Of a stretch of DNA of 64,000 nt, positions 1,081 through 61,626 are shown piece after piece. Below the pieces are notes generated by a model. That model made no database searches, was not told the origin of the DNA, and saw only the letters and a list, made by a program, of their open reading frames with translations. The translations under genes were made by a program, and so were the position numbers. Source of the DNA: a bacterium (GTDB lineage: Bacteria > Bacillota > Clostridia > Lachnospirales > Lachnospiraceae). Positions within the stretch are counted from its first letter, which is position 1. Every line of letters starts with the position of its first letter. The stretch is from positions 1 through 64,000 of the forward strand of contig JAUNJY010000006.1 of assembly GCA_030535455.1 (NCBI GenBank), in the 5' to 3' direction.

Positions 1081-1228
1081 GAGAAGTTTCCCATAAATAA
1101 AAAAGTGTTTTGCTTGCAAAACACTCCGCGCCGAACGCGATTACGAAGTGATAAACTCCTTCCGTGTAAGTGAGCATCTTGGCTTTCTGGTTTTTAGAAA
1201 GCCTTTTTTACTCTATAGGGAAGGGCTC
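1081..1228 (+). repeat. Dispersed structured repeat, copy A
   Basis: This copy has a GAGAAGTTTCCC left end, a palindrome GTGTTTTGC-TT-GCAAAACAC (1105-1124), the core CCGCGCCGAACGCGA (1126-1140), a small stem ATTAC-GAA-GTGAT (1140-1153 region), then the hairpin GGCTTTCT...AGAAAGCC followed by six T. It ends near GGGAAGGGCTC. It lies between the purD terminator and the SH3b gene. Read leftward, the first palindrome is followed by T5-T6. Read rightward, the last hairpin is followed by T6. Both ends therefore look like outward-facing intrinsic terminators. The rest of the gap, 880-1080, shows nothing I can assign. Confidence 0.8.
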
Positions 1229-1251
1229 GGGAGAGAACTTTCCTATAGAGT

Positions 1252-1287
1252 AAAAAAGCAGCCCACACATATACTGTGTGAACTGCT
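1252..1287 (-). terminator. Terminator downstream of purD
   Basis: On the minus strand, AGCAG-TT-CACACA pairs with TGTGTG-GG-CTGCT across a short loop and is followed by six T. This closes the purE-M-N-D operon. Confidence 0.8.
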
Positions 1288-7290: not shown

Positions 7291-7443
7291 GAGAAGTTTC
7301 CTCGTATTACAGAAAAAAGTGTTTTGCTTGCAAAACACTCCGCGCCGAACGCGATCACGAAGTGATAAACTCCTTCCGCTTAAGTGCGTATCTTGGCTTT
7401 CTGGTTTTTAGAAAGCCTTTTTTTTATTGATAGGAGATTTCTC
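7291..7443 (+). repeat. Dispersed structured repeat, copy B
   Basis: This copy runs from GAGAAGTTTCC to GGAGATTTCTC, so the ends are an inverted pair. The palindrome GTGTTTTGC-TT-GCAAAACAC at 7319-7338 is identical to copy A. The core CCGCGCCGAACGCGA and the stem ATCAC-GAA-GTGAT follow. The stem changes T to C relative to copy A (G-T to G-C), keeping the pair. The GGCTTTCT/AGAAAGCC hairpin is followed by eight T. The copy fills most of the 390-base gap between the unknown gene at 7534 and the aminopeptidase. Confidence 0.8.
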
Positions 7444-7464
7444 GAAGAGAAGTTTCTTATCAAT

Positions 7465-7499
7465 TAAAAAAAGAGATGCCACAGGTCTATGGCATCTCT
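7465..7499 (-). terminator. Terminator of the unknown gene at 7534-8274
   Basis: AGAGATGCCA pairs with TGGCATCTCT across a short loop. On the minus strand it is followed by seven T. Confidence 0.8.
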
Positions 7500-7533: not shown

Positions 7534-8274
7534 TCAACGAGCCTCCGCTAAGCGACTCTTATTGGAACTATAAGTTCTTGTCCAATCATAACATTCTTCA
7601 ATAAGCTTTCTTGATAATTGATTATATTGCATCAACAATTGATTTAATGTAAAGCGATTTGATGAGCAAGATGCATATAAATCTTTTAACATATAGCAAA
7701 TAGAAAGATTTATCCTATTGTGCATAAGATGAGGATATGCCTTACGAAGCTCAGCATTCATCTTTTCATACAGTTCTTCTTCTAATAAAACATCTTCGCC
7801 CTCTTCATAGTAATTATCTAACATCCGAAATATTATATTTTCTTCTTCTTTTGTTAAATTTGCATGAATTGCAATTACTTCAAGTATATCATTTATTGTA
7901 TTCATCTGAATACCATACGTTGAAAGCCCTAATTCATAAAATACATTGGTACTGATACGAATAACAAATCTTAATTGATGCTGCTGTAACTTATGTAAGG
8001 TCTTTCTAATCTGCTGGTATATTGATTTCGTCGTTTTTTCATAGCGCACTGAAAACACCATTGCTGTAATAATGCTGAGCTTGTACTGTTCAAAAACTTC
8101 GATCTTCGTTATGTATTTTGAAATTCCTTTTAATTTTAGGACTAAATATTTATAATCTTCATATGTTAAGTCAAGATCGCCAATTGTCCGTAGCATCTTT
8201 TCATCTGTCTTAAATCTTTCCTCTAATGTTTGTTCAATCTGATAAAGTGTAAAATCCGCATCTAAGATATTCAT
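7534..8274 (-). CDS. Unknown helical protein
   Basis: The 246 residues have no signal peptide, no membrane span and no motif I recognise. The sequence is rich in Leu, Glu, Lys and Tyr with long amphipathic stretches, which suggests an all-helical cytoplasmic protein. A Cys pair and Tyr-rich segment lie near residues 200-230. The gene stands alone, with its own terminator and repeat copy B downstream, and is divergent from rnpB. The start at 8274 has a GGAGGAG ribosome binding site. It is real by length, ribosome binding site and terminator, but no function can be given. Confidence 0.75.
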   Translation of the reverse strand: MNILDADFTLYQIEQTLEERFKTDEKMLRTIGDLDLTYEDYKYLVLKLKGISKYITKIEVFEQYKLSIITAMVFSVRYEKTTKSIYQQIRKTLHKLQQHQLRFVIRISTNVFYELGLSTYGIQMNTINDILEVIAIHANLTKEEENIIFRMLDNYYEEGEDVLLEEELYEKMNAELRKAYPHLMHNRINLSICYMLKDLYASCSSNRFTLNQLLMQYNQLSRKLIEECYDWTRTYSSNKSRLAEAR

Positions 8275-8539: not shown

Positions 8540-8884
8540 TGAGTAGCACAGATGATCGCGCCTATTAGTTGCCGAAAGGCCTTAGGTGAGGAAAGTCCGG
8601 GCTTCATAGGGCAGGGTGCCAGATAACGTCTGGTGGAGGCGACTCCAAGGCTAGTGCAACAGAAATATACCGCCAATTTATTGGTAAGGGTGGAAAGGTG
8701 ATGTAAGAGATCACCGCCTGGTTGGTAACAAACAGGGCATATGTAAACCCCACTCGAAGCAAGACCGAATTATAAGCGATACGGCTGCCCGTCGTGCTTA
8801 TGGGTAGGTCGCTAGAGCCTAGTGGCGACGCTAGGCCAAGATAGATGATCATTTAATACAGAACTCGGCTTATAGTGTTACTCA
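8540..8884 (+). ncRNA. rnpB: RNase P RNA component
   Basis: This is the catalytic RNA that matures tRNA 5' ends. The universal segment GAGGAAAGTCCGGGC is at about 8589-8603. The matching 3' segment ACAGAACTCGGCTTAT is at about 8858-8873, and AGGCCAAGATAG-type P4-proximal sequence is near 8832. The outer helix P1 is formed by TGAGTAGCAC (8540-8549) and GTGTTACTCA (8875-8884). About 345 nucleotides is a normal size. It is on the plus strand, opposite to both neighbours, with its own promoter and a likely terminator at 8965-9010. Ends are set from P1 pairing and may be off by a few bases. Confidence 0.95.
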
Positions 8885-8964
8885 ACCTTTTATAATTCTT
8901 GTACGTTATATAAAGGATAAATATTAACGCCATACCACACATATGGTGGAAAAAACGACTTACA

Positions 8965-21751: not shown

Positions 21752-21825
21752 ACAGAACAAAGCGTTTTGCTTGCAAAACACTCCGCGCCGAACTCGGTTG
21801 CGCAAGCGACATCTTCCTTGTATTA
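21752..21825 (+). repeat. Dispersed structured repeat, copy C (short)
   Basis: This copy has a palindrome variant GCGTTTTGC-TT-GCAAAACAC and the core CCGCGCCGAACTCGG. The stem GTTGC-GCAA-GCGAC corresponds to GTCGC-GACA-GCGAC in copy D. The right half with the GGCTTTCT hairpin is missing and is replaced by the shared terminator at 21830-21861. It lies between convergent genes. Confidence 0.75.
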
Positions 21826-21829
21826 AAAA

Positions 21830-21861
21830 AATCCCGTGAAAGCATATGCCTTCACGGGATT
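21830..21861. terminator. Bidirectional terminator between ABC permease and VOC gene
   Basis: AATCCCGTGAA pairs with TTCACGGGATT, with A-runs before and T-runs after on both strands. Confidence 0.85.
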
Positions 21862-49836: not shown

Positions 49837-49985
49837 TAAGTTTCCTATAGTGTAAAAAAGTGTTTTGCTTGCAAAACACTCCGCGCCGAACTCGGTCGCG
49901 ACAGCGACATTCTCCTTTCGAGTGAGTGCACATCTTGGCTTTCTGGTTTTTAGAAAGCCAAGATGTGCACTATAGGGAAGGACTC
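49837..49985 (+). repeat. Dispersed structured repeat, copy D
   Basis: The ends are near-inverted: TTTCCTATAGTG on the left and CACTATAGGGAA on the right. The palindrome GTGTTTTGC-TT-GCAAAACAC is at 49860-49879. The core CCGCGCCGAACTCGG follows, then the stem GTCGC-GACA-GCGAC. The last hairpin is extended to a perfect 19-bp stem (GTGCACATCTTGGCTTTCT with its complement). It lies downstream of cobO and upstream of the amino-acid ABC operon. Between 49650 and 49836 I see only AT-rich sequence and the ARG-like pair. Confidence 0.82.
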
Positions 49986-50003
49986 TGAGCTTTCATATAG
50001 CGT

Positions 50004-50062
50004 AAAAAAAAGAACTAGAGGAACTTGTTTCCTATAATAGGTAAATAGTTCTTTCTAGTTCT
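50004..50062 (-). terminator. Terminator of the cobO-type gene
   Basis: On the minus strand AGAACTAGA...GAAC pairs with GTTC...TCTAGTTCT and eight T follow. Confidence 0.7.
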
Positions 50063-50069
50063 CTCCATA

Positions 50070-50585
50070 TTAAAACTCTACGCCTCTTCTGGCAGGAAGT
50101 CCTTGATCAAAAGGATGCTTCTCCTTTTTCATATTGGTAATATAATCGGCCTGACCAATTAAATACTCATCTGGGTTTCTTCCAGTCATAACAATCTCTA
50201 ATTCCTTTGGACGCATCTCTAATAATGTACGTACCATATTCTTATCAATCAAATCCATATTATAAACATCTAACAGCTCATCTAAAATTAGAGTATCACA
50301 TTCTTTACGGTTGATTTTATCAATTGCCTGCATTAAGTTCAGATTATGCATCATTGCAACTTCTTTCTTTTGCTCCTCCGACATTTGAAATGTAAATCCA
50401 TGATTGATTTCATTTCTTAAAATCGTCACTTCCGGAATTCGACTTAATATTTCAATCTCTCCGGTCGGATTTCCTTTCAAAAACTGAACTATTGTTACTA
50501 GGTTTCCTACCCCAGCTGCCCTTACTGCCAAGCCCATTGCTGCAGTGGTCTTTCCTTTTCCGTCACCATGATAAATATGAACCAT
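50070..50585 (-). CDS. cobO: Corrinoid adenosyltransferase (BtuR/CobO type)
   Basis: This enzyme transfers adenosyl from ATP to cob(I)alamin or cob(I)yrinic acid diamide. The 171 residues have the P-loop YHGDGKGKTTAAMG (about 4-17) and the late NPDEYLIGQADYITNMKKEKHPFDQG-type region ending ARRGVEF. No cobalamin biosynthesis genes or cobalamin riboswitch lie nearby, so it may serve salvage. It is divergent from the GntR gene. The symbol follows the family. Confidence 0.9.
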   Translation of the reverse strand: MVHIYHGDGKGKTTAAMGLAVRAAGVGNLVTIVQFLKGNPTGEIEILSRIPEVTILRNEINHGFTFQMSEEQKKEVAMMHNLNLMQAIDKINRKECDTLILDELLDVYNMDLIDKNMVRTLLEMRPKELEIVMTGRNPDEYLIGQADYITNMKKEKHPFDQGLPARRGVEF

Positions 50586-59667: not shown

Positions 59668-59722
59668 AAGGGTGTCTTATTCAGAGTCAAAAGAATGACT
59701 CTGCTAAGGTGCTCTTTTTTTA
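59668..59722 (+). terminator. Second leader hairpin with hexaloop
   Basis: GGGTGTCTTA pairs with TAAGGTGCTC (several G-T pairs). Above it CAGAGTCA pairs with TGACTCTG around the six-base loop AAAGAA. T7 follows. The loop has A at position 1 and G at position 4, as ANTAR-protein targets do. A separate inverted repeat TTAATTAACAAG/CTTGTTAATTAA follows at 59720-59764. Confidence 0.6.
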
Positions 59723-59762
59723 ATTAACAAGGCACTTCTCTTCTTAAAGCCTCTTGTTAATT

Positions 59763-59880
59763 AAAAAGGCTTTCAACAAATCAGAAAGCCTAGATGCGCA
59801 CTCACATGAGAGAAAGATGGCGCTATTGCGACCGGGTTCGGCGCAGACAAAGTGTGTACTACACACGCTTTGTTCAAAAA
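59763..59880 (-). repeat. Dispersed structured repeat, copy E (inverted, diverged)
   Basis: Read on the minus strand, it has the stem ACAAAGCGTGTGTA/TACACACTTTGT in place of the common palindrome. The core CTGCGCCGAACCCGGTCGC is followed by GAGTGCGCATCTAGGCTTTCTG and GAAAGCCTTTTT. The stem sequence is entirely changed but still pairs. It sits inside the amt-glnB leader and ends about 8 bases before the ribosome binding site. Confidence 0.7.
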
Positions 59881-59901: not shown

Positions 59902-61626
59902 ATGAACTTTTCTGCAGCAAACACAATCTGGGTACTTCTTGGTGCCGCTTTAGTATTCTTTATGCAAGCTGGTTTTGCAATGGTCGAGACTGGATTTACC
60001 AGGGCCAAAAATGCCGGTAACATTATTATGAAAAACTTAATGGATTTTAGTATTGGTACTCCTGTATTTTGGATTATCGGTTTTGGACTTATGTTTGGAG
60101 GTGGCAACGGTCTGATTGGTTCTGTAAATGGACTGGCAACTGAAGCCAACTATGGTATAGGAATGTTACCAGACGGGGTACCATTCTATGCCTATCTAAT
60201 CTTTCAGACAGTATTCTGTGCAACTGCCGCAACCATTGTATCTGGTGCAATGGCAGAACGTACAAAATTTATTTCCTATTGTCTTTACAGCTTCTGTATC
60301 AGTTTATTTGTATATCCAATCTCTGGCCACTGGATTTGGTCCTCTAATGGCTGGTTAAATGCAATGGGATTTCATGATTTTGCAGGTTCCACTGCAGTTC
60401 ATATGGTTGGTGGTGTAGCTGCTTTTGTAGGTGCCTTAATCCTAGGACCTCGTATTGGAAAATACGGTAAGAATGGTAAAGTAAATGCAATTCAAGGACA
60501 CAGTCTGACATTAGGCGCACTTGGTGTATTTATCCTTTGGTTCTGCTGGTTCGGTTTCAATGGTGCTTCCACTGTATCCATGGGCGATGATGCCGCAATC
60601 CTTAGCGCTTCTAAAATCTTTGTTACAACAAACTTAGCTGCTGCCGTAGCAACATGTACGGTTATGCTGCTCACTTGGTTCCGTTATAAGAAACCTGACG
60701 TTTCCATGACACTAAATGGTACTCTTGCAGGACTTGTTGCAATCACTGCAGGATGTGATACCGTAAGTCCAATCAGCGCAGCCATCATTGGATTTGCTTC
60801 TGGATTTATTGTAGTATTCGGTATTGAGTTTATTGATAAGAAATTAAAAATTGATGATCCAGTTGGTGCTGTAGGTGTCCATGGATTAAATGGTTTATTT
60901 GGTACGATAGCAGTCGGCTTATTCTCAGATGGTGCTGGTACAGAACTCAAAGGTTTATTTACTGGCGGTGGATTCAAACTATTAGGCATTCAGACACTTG
61001 GTGCTATTGCAGTTATTGCTTGGGTTGCAATTACAATGACAATCGTATTCAAGGTAATAGATAAGACAATCGGTCTTCGTGTTAGCAAAGAAGAAGAAAT
61101 TCTTGGACTTGATAGCACAGAACATAACTTAGCATCTTCTTATGCTGACTTCTTACAAGTTCCAGCTACCTATAATCCAGATGCCAAAGTACCTGCTCCA
61201 ACTTCTAGCAAAGCAACCGTAGATGCCTCTGTACCTGTTCAGGTAGTAAGCGGAAATGAAACAGTTGCAAGCGATGTCAAATTATCAAAAGTAACTATCA
61301 TATGTAAACAAAATAAATTCGACGATTTAAAAGAAGCCCTAAACGATATTGGCGTTATGGGTATCACAGTAACACAAGTACTTGGATGTGGCGTTCAAAA
61401 GGGTGCTGCTAAATATTATCGTGGTGTCCAAGTTGATGTAGTCGTATTGCCAAAAGTGCAAGTTGACGTAGTCGTAAGCAAGGTTCCTGTAAGAGATGTA
61501 ATTGAAACAGCCAAAAAAGCTCTATACACTGGCAATATTGGCGATGGCAAGATCTTCGTTTACAACGTTGAAAATGTAGTAAAGGTAAGAACCGGAGAAG
61601 AAGGATTTGATGCTCTTCAAGGTTAA
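59902..61626 (+). CDS. Ammonium transporter fused to a PII signalling domain
   Basis: The ATG at 59902 follows GGAGGTG. Residues 1-410 are Amt/AmtB with 11 spans, including FFMQAGFAMVETGFTRAKN (about 20-38), DFAGSTAVHMVGG (about 155, first pore His) and VGVHGLNGLFGT (about 325, second pore His). A linker of about 60 residues (Ala/Pro/Ser/Val-rich) leads to a PII domain from about 465. It has KFDDLKEALNDIGVMGITVTQV, GCGVQKGAAKYYRG, LPKVQVDVVV and TGNIGDGKIFVY. The Tyr of the T-loop that is uridylylated in GlnB is Val here. The PII domain probably blocks the channel when nitrogen is plentiful. Confidence 0.95.
   Translation: MNFSAANTIWVLLGAALVFFMQAGFAMVETGFTRAKNAGNIIMKNLMDFSIGTPVFWIIGFGLMFGGGNGLIGSVNGLATEANYGIGMLPDGVPFYAYLIFQTVFCATAATIVSGAMAERTKFISYCLYSFCISLFVYPISGHWIWSSNGWLNAMGFHDFAGSTAVHMVGGVAAFVGALILGPRIGKYGKNGKVNAIQGHSLTLGALGVFILWFCWFGFNGASTVSMGDDAAILSASKIFVTTNLAAAVATCTVMLLTWFRYKKPDVSMTLNGTLAGLVAITAGCDTVSPISAAIIGFASGFIVVFGIEFIDKKLKIDDPVGAVGVHGLNGLFGTIAVGLFSDGAGTELKGLFTGGGFKLLGIQTLGAIAVIAWVAITMTIVFKVIDKTIGLRVSKEEEILGLDSTEHNLASSYADFLQVPATYNPDAKVPAPTSSKATVDASVPVQVVSGNETVASDVKLSKVTIICKQNKFDDLKEALNDIGVMGITVTQVLGCGVQKGAAKYYRGVQVDVVVLPKVQVDVVVSKVPVRDVIETAKKALYTGNIGDGKIFVYNVENVVKVRTGEEGFDALQG

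Follow-up and report, generated by a model that had tools for sequence, protein, structure and literature searches.

One of the closest comparisons for the repeat discussed here is with the BCR repeats of the Bacillus cereus group, interspersed elements of 100-400 bp that are restricted to that group, reach up to 130 copies, are mostly chromosomal and show mobile features (PMC6542083), with Bcr1 listed as having a conserved secondary structure (PMC2267715). Like bcr1-type repeats, ours is a many-copy, structured intergenic repeat of one bacterial group that is present or absent at individual sites; however, the mobility of BCR repeats has been tied to TTTAT repeats and a mechanism resembling site-specific recombination (PMC6542083), and the portions of that account on which we draw mention neither terminator docking nor fork polarity; the comparison is one of description. 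REP and REPIN elements are also many-copy hairpin repeats, lying mostly 3' of genes and presumed to move as single strands (PMC3116915, PMC6006769, PMC3733652). Our repeat, in contrast, shows neither a GTAG/GTGG foot at its left stem nor a linked Y1 gene, and is a larger modular unit with a covarying core and strict polarity. Group IIC introns, for their part, dock at terminators. They insert at DNA stem-loops and exploit the lagging strand (PMC10190682). Our repeat likewise inserts downstream of a terminator stem-loop (109 of 173 sites, with longer hairpins at two further copies, D and E), although it is only some 150 bp long, carries no reverse transcriptase gene and has no match to an Rfam group II intron. 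BOX repeats are modular, and to our knowledge neither they nor RUP are associated with terminator docking or fork polarity. BOX and RUP are the short interspersed repeats of pneumococcus (PMC3049150), and our repeat is of that modular interspersed sort, but in another host and built of other parts. We would call it an interspersed, structured mobile repeat that behaves like bcr1 or a REPIN and fails those defining features of REPINs and group II introns that were tested; it combines a covarying fold, docking behind one kind of signal and a nearly absolute replication polarity, across many genera of a single family.

The window, by which we mean the whole stretch of 64,000 nucleotides that was analysed, holds five copies (A to E; Table 1), all of which an earlier note had located and all of which are indeed there when the sequence is read, aligned and re-read by coordinate; the 21-mer GCAAAACACTCCGCGCCGAAC occurs four times without mismatch, against none in 100 shuffles. 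The sites given for the copies were right but the right ends were not, the full units extending further at that end, and copy C, while present, is truncated inside the core and is not reported by our core model R1. The stretch CGCGCCGAAC, previously taken to be single-stranded, is better read as GCGC pairing with GCGC, CGA facing GAGT and AC opening the next helix, and the 'partly inverted ends' turn out to be the arms of the right-end palindrome, or else, on the left side of copies A and B, leftover arms similar to the end of a unit lying upstream. As to the suggestion that the repeat is MITE-like, a mobile terminator or a structured RNA, the fold, the T-run hairpin of full copies and the mobility have all held up, whereas the core and ends had been misread; the fixed polarity relative to terminators and to replication lies beyond what that note saw.

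Table 1. Copies of the repeat and adjoining hairpins in the window
Feature	Position	Strand	Basis and remarks
Copy A, full unit: A-run followed by H1, core and T1, then a palindrome ending in an A-run	1099..1257	+	sequence, R1; missing at matching place in G002
Copy A stem H1 (AGTGTTTTGC-TT-GCAAAACACT)	1104..1125	+	sequence
Copy A core	1126..1178	+	model R1, 60.7 bits
Copy A hairpin T1 with T-run	1181..1209	+	sequence
Copy A palindrome TTTTTTACTCTATAGG...CCTATAGAGTAAAAAA	1204..1257	+	sequence
Terminator hairpin of minus-strand gene 1335-2606 (GARS family), adjoins copy A	1258..1286	-	-21.4 kcal/mol
Copy B, full unit	7313..7472	+	sequence, R1; missing in G002
Copy B core	7340..7392	+	model R1, 55.7 bits
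Terminator hairpin of minus-strand gene 7534-8274, adjoins copy B	7473..7498	-	-18.3 kcal/mol
Copy C, truncated: H1 and first part of core, then A-run	21755..21831	+	sequence, 11-mer; a different copy there in G002
Terminator hairpin between convergent genes, adjoins copy C	21832..21859	-	-22.8 kcal/mol
Copy D	49854..50011	+	sequence, R1; G002 contigs end at this place
Copy D core	49881..49934	+	model R1, 73.7 bits
Long terminator-like hairpin of minus-strand gene 50070-50585 (CobA/BtuR family), adjoins copy D	50012..50060	-	-13.1 kcal/mol, z -3.3; fails strict short-hairpin test
Copy E, full unit	59715..59875	-	sequence, R1; clean empty site in G002
Copy E core	59793..59846	-	model R1, 63 bits
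Long terminator-like hairpin with T-run, adjoins copy E	59668..59722	+	-19.5 kcal/mol, z -5.3; fails strict short-hairpin test

At all five window copies the right end adjoins, on the opposite strand, a hairpin and its T-run; A, B and C pass a strict terminator test, while D and E fail it but have a longer hairpin. Copy D has a damaged palindrome and a T1 remodelled into a long hairpin (49927-49969), and copy E sits directly upstream of the plus-strand ammonium transporter gene at 59902-61626. Nine proteins encoded beside the copies proved to be ordinary ones or to have no match in Pfam. At gathering threshold, Rfam has a single match in the window, a class A RNase P RNA gene (8540-8888, plus strand).

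Read 5' to 3' on the strand that carries GCGCCGARC, the repeat is about 150 nt long and runs from an A-rich end through a stem (H1), a 54-nt core and a terminator-like hairpin (T1) to a variable palindrome. The left end has the form AANAA, with conservation dropping beyond it in the left-end flanks of 91 copies; H1 is either short (GTGTTTTGC-TT-GCAAAACAC and relatives) or longer, with an insert; the core is made of P1 (GCGC/GCGC), CGA facing GAGT, helix P2, hairpin P3 and a pyrimidine-rich strand of 10 nt; T1 is a hairpin with a T-run, going down in relatives to CGC-GGA-GCG; and the palindrome spans from the T-run of T1 to an A-run. The long form of H1 (loci L004, L005, L008, L042, L088, L104 and L160) can be drawn in two ways, as a small hairpin (for example GTGTCTTCGACAC) or as a long-range stem closing on the core, and these could be alternative states.

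The core has a conserved fold with compensatory changes. Among 23 host cores, 95.3% of cells pair, against 88.5% after shuffling, with 29 both-side changes against 8.6; the corresponding values are 99.4% against 96.0% and 42 against 10.3 for 65 distinct family rows, and 94.9% against 85.9% and 120 against 33.5 for 78 distinct host rows, the rows of these alignments being related and the latter two alignments having been fitted to the model. Covariation scores for the three alignments, in the same order, are 0.279, 0.175 and 0.353, and with the partners slid they reach at most 0.128, 0.080 and 0.107; on the other side of the balance, further pair types are no more frequent than in shuffles (12 against 12.5 in the 23 host cores, 13 against 11.9 in the 65 family rows). 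CGA is kept in 65 of 65 family and 74 of 78 host rows, whereas GAGT is found in 62 of 65 family rows and in 53 of the 78 from the host, 21 of which have AAGT at this place; we take tandem sheared G.A pairs to be the likely form of this internal match. Because G.U cells exceed A.C cells (16 against 4 in the family, 51 against 29 in the host), the GCGCCGARC strand is favoured as the one that folds.

The arms of the palindrome tend to change together: with the arms anchored on inner bases only, which could be done for 53 of 74 host, 47 of 65 family and 26 of 36 G001 copies, complementarity over the outer 8 bases amounts to 74% (host), 82% (family) and 80% (G001) of positions within a copy, and to only 46%, 59% and 66% between copies. 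We prefer this to a figure of 98% within-copy complementarity, which is inflated, coming from 69 of 136 inverted repeats picked partly for a high score. Imperfect palindromes can be corrected by template switching, and such correction, or selection on structure, could lie behind the joint change. That the arms are copied from the target is suggested by copies B and E when set against G002 but not by copy A or L046, and we reject it as a general rule because recent copies in G001 share their arms.

How widespread is the repeat? The earlier note had expected many copies in the genome, and the host draft indeed holds at least 148 (model R1; 150 candidates scored), with the 11-mer CCGCGCCGAAC occurring 61 times against none for a backwards control. 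The same model finds 47, 69 and 1 copies in three congeners and, under stricter filters, has matches in 69 of the 299 genomes that were drawn from the host's family, so that the wider search which had been proposed does yield further copies both in the host and in other Lachnospiraceae. A second model, R2, matches just two of 398 genomes drawn across the phylum, both of them in the host's family. A pattern scan of named genomes returned at least 112 stretches; among the 80 titles listed, most are Lachnospiraceae or its genera (Butyrivibrio, Roseburia, Coprococcus, Eisenbergiella and others), and some give no more than Eubacteriales, Clostridiales, Eubacterium or Clostridium fessum. The host draft (G000) is listed at 93.56% completeness with 7.74% contamination, so that absences in it are weak evidence. 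A known RNA family was considered and rejected: in the window no Rfam family matches over a copy at gathering threshold, and at permissive E-values (12 loci, E up to 5 or 1) there are weak matches over hairpin parts, far below threshold, such as mir-4679 (38 of 88 bits, E 0.0003), EF3314_EF3315 (28 of 100 bits, E 0.006) and sau-6072 (26 of 50 bits), which we take as chance. Phages and plasmids gave no match to copy B (191 bases, the sole query) and viral contigs none to one exact pattern, and as far as we have searched the repeat is chromosomal only. In the open-licence literature we found nothing that describes it, nor a described family that would hold it.

The copies have a marked placement: at 115 of the 127 sites that could be classified, the gene on the right-hand side has its end towards the element. 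Relative to the element, and with genes called by our own ORF caller, the flanking genes lie -- at 49, +- at 12, -+ at 5 and ++ at 1 of the host sites, and at 39, 15, 4 and 2 of those from the family; the host set comprised 76 sites, with copy C added through its 11-mer and tandem neighbours collapsed, the family set 65 of 82 matches (15 were near a locus end and two were further units of L153), and 14 host and family sites at edges or inside a called ORF were unclassified. In a strict test that asks for a hairpin ending at a T-run on the terminator strand, 109 of 173 sites have the right end by a T-tract, compared with 14 for the left end and 6 for shuffled right flanks (host 39 of 72, 11 and 3; family 42 of 65, 2 and 2; G001, where 36 of 47 copies entered this test as well as the identity, flank, end-loss and -10 tests, 28 of 36, 1 and 1). 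The 64 sites that fail include D and E, despite their longer hairpins. At most sites the distance from the start of the T-run to the core is near constant (medians 76, 58 and 72), with a tail of exceptions, and where units stand in tandem, the following unit's H1 occupies the usual place of the gene terminator. A few neighbours deserve mention in their own right. At L082, L085, L089, L092 and L133, copies lie between a putative T-box attenuator terminator (identified by eye) and the start of its gene, which from the sequence would be insertion inside a regulated leader, and a TPP riboswitch (L008, 2047-2150, minus strand) lies near a triple array. There may also be a second dispersed repeat downstream of terminators (CAGACTGTAGACAAATGAAATCTTG / GACTTTGTCGACAAGC), at about 1283-1340 in the window and in the right flanks of L011, L032, L013, L034, L045 and L031, its exact 25-mer occurring in just 2 of 325 loci and a 16-mer once in the window, the other look-alikes having been found by eye.

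The second fixed orientation is with respect to replication: the GCGCCGARC strand runs in the opposite sense to the terminator and counter to the fork. Counted over four complete genomes, 63 of the 66 copies are turned towards the replication fork and three the other way. In G001, with dnaA at 3,496,685, the count is 46 of 47 if the terminus is placed opposite and 47 of 47 with the terminus anywhere from 1.105 to 1.159 Mb; hand counts give 8 of 9 in G298, 5 of 5 in G235 and 4 of 5 in G088. Gene direction explains much of this, because most genes around the G001 copies are themselves co-directional with the fork (194, against 25 head-on; n=219), although 46 of 47 still exceeds the gene expectation of 0.886 (p 0.024). 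Convergent gene pairs, which help to tell gene direction and fork apart, agree with the fork or with the local majority at 20 of 24 informative sites: by the fork, 6 of 6 in G001, and by local majority 4 of 4 in the host (8 more being uninformative) and 10 of 14 in the family, where four sites disagree. Copy E goes with its terminator and runs counter to the main direction of the genes. We infer that the terminator comes first and that the fork adds to it. Across 42 G001 sites there was no departure from a uniform spread between origin and terminus (p 0.41).

The repeat appears to be mobile, being dispersed with unrelated flanks and present or absent between close species. Nine of the 36 G001 copies make up 29 pairs that share at least 95% identity over some 161 bases, and their flanks are no more alike than background (0.49); in the host there are 4 such pairs among 4 of 72 copies. 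A close relative, G002 (about 79-91% identical in aligned stretches), lacks copies A, B and E and the copy at L046, and it offers one clean empty site, that of copy E, where the unit sits between a T-rich and an A-rich stretch. Single missing sites could instead be losses in G002, and not all copies are recent, since the one at L243 is common to G000 and G002.

How might all of this fit together? With confidence and doubt about evenly balanced, we read the repeat as a mobile element of Lachnospiraceae, non-autonomous and carried on the chromosome, whose insertion site lies directly behind an intrinsic terminator (a hairpin followed by a T-tract); the dispersal, the presence and absence, the terminator docking, the replication polarity and the fold with compensatory changes are all observed directly. 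Insertion would be into single-stranded DNA at the fork, where the terminator would form a hairpin, and the element's own H1 hairpin and T-rich end (on the terminator strand) may mimic that target, which would explain the head-to-tail arrays. The core fold might serve as a recognition feature for a putative mobilising protein, and landing behind a terminator would make insertion nearly harmless. Terminator hairpins as landing sites at the fork fit the placement, the polarity, the arrays and the gain and loss. Against this stand the 64 sites that fail the strict terminator test and the fact that no mobilising enzyme was found; in addition, the strand favoured by the fold is not the one exposed on the lagging-strand template. 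This strand preference is the main loose end, which simple insertion into that template does not explain; speculatively, it would be accounted for if a single strand annealed and became a piece of the nascent lagging strand. We would also entertain, tentatively and as an unlikely possibility, a replication-coupled element without the usual transposase or reverse transcriptase, spreading via host replication or single-strand annealing at terminator hairpins through its conserved core, and so seeding terminators that face head-on traffic.

A rather different idea is that the repeat is a cis-acting element under selection, with transcripts of the GCGCCGARC strand folding and ending at T1, thereby stopping head-on transcription antisense into leading-strand gene ends, or else that it is a polar chromosomal binding site. 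Polarity would then be the function, and the conserved fold on that very strand, T1 in full copies, the location at gene 3' ends and the copy common to G000 and G002 all speak for it; however, the rapid gain and loss, the species-specific near-identical copies, the 230 of 299 family genomes without a match and the lack of any excess of -10-like motifs upstream of H1 (88 of 176, against 101 of 176 shuffled) do not, and we consider it unlikely, if worth taking seriously.

Insertion by way of RNA, in which a reverse transcriptase makes DNA from the element's transcript at a terminator T-tract, would account for the junction A-run and the structured, RNA-like core, and has the kind of target and the polarity described for group IIC introns (PMC10190682). 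An RVT_1 domain is present in 7 of 13 carriers, but was not found in the other six (the host draft, G090, G169, G215, G173 and G243), and neither the window, at gathering threshold, nor 12 loci, at permissive settings, match a group II intron of Rfam. In addition, a lost left end with an intact right was seen less often than the reverse (12 cases as opposed to 34, by a rough automatic test), which argues against target-primed copying of the GCGCCGARC strand, and so we find this quite improbable.

We are, if anything, slightly more sceptical of a REPIN-like or IS200/IS605-derived element moved in trans by a Y1 (HUH) transposase. Features of the IS200/IS605 type are certainly there, in the form of hairpins near both ends (the left stem and the right palindrome) and a polar insertion, together with arrays, and HUH transposases use the lagging-strand template (PMC6006769). 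No terminal inverted repeats were seen by eye, which is likewise of the IS200/IS605 type; with regard to a classical MITE, the A-runs at both ends would mask any short target-site duplication, and copy E alone offers a clean empty site. A Y1 domain occurs in 7 of 12 carriers and in none of G001, G090, G169, G215 and G179; of these, the complete G001, source of the near-identical copies, has no match at E 0.001. Moreover, none of 20 Y1 loci carries a copy (R1, the core model, at E up to 1), no GTAG/GTGG (or CGTC) foot was seen by eye at the left stem in 91 left-end flanks, where the foot is the A-rich AANAA, and it is the wrong strand that folds better. The repeat is not consistently accompanied by a Y1 transposase or by a reverse transcriptase: G090, G169 and G215 have neither, most of the tested carrier genomes being drafts, and no mobiliser was found beside arrays when neighbours at eight loci were translated and read by eye. 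That these are only ordinary terminators, alike by chance or common composition, can be dismissed as very improbable indeed, for although T1, and H1 on the other strand, are terminator-like, the 61 exact 11-mers against none, the 148 model matches and the compensatory, non-terminator core contradict it.

If our preferred reading of a terminator-docking mobile element is right, it is of interest well beyond this window. The carriers are gut and rumen bacteria from many genera of Lachnospiraceae, short structured repeats are common in bacteria generally, and the repeat is a countable natural record of DNA invasion at replication forks; its enzyme, or the absence of one, bears on how transposase-free repeats spread. 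It could also mark replication direction in draft genomes. Several contigs of the G002 assembly (for example C96, C123, C61, C67 and C190) begin in the palindrome, and the repeat therefore probably breaks short-read assemblies.
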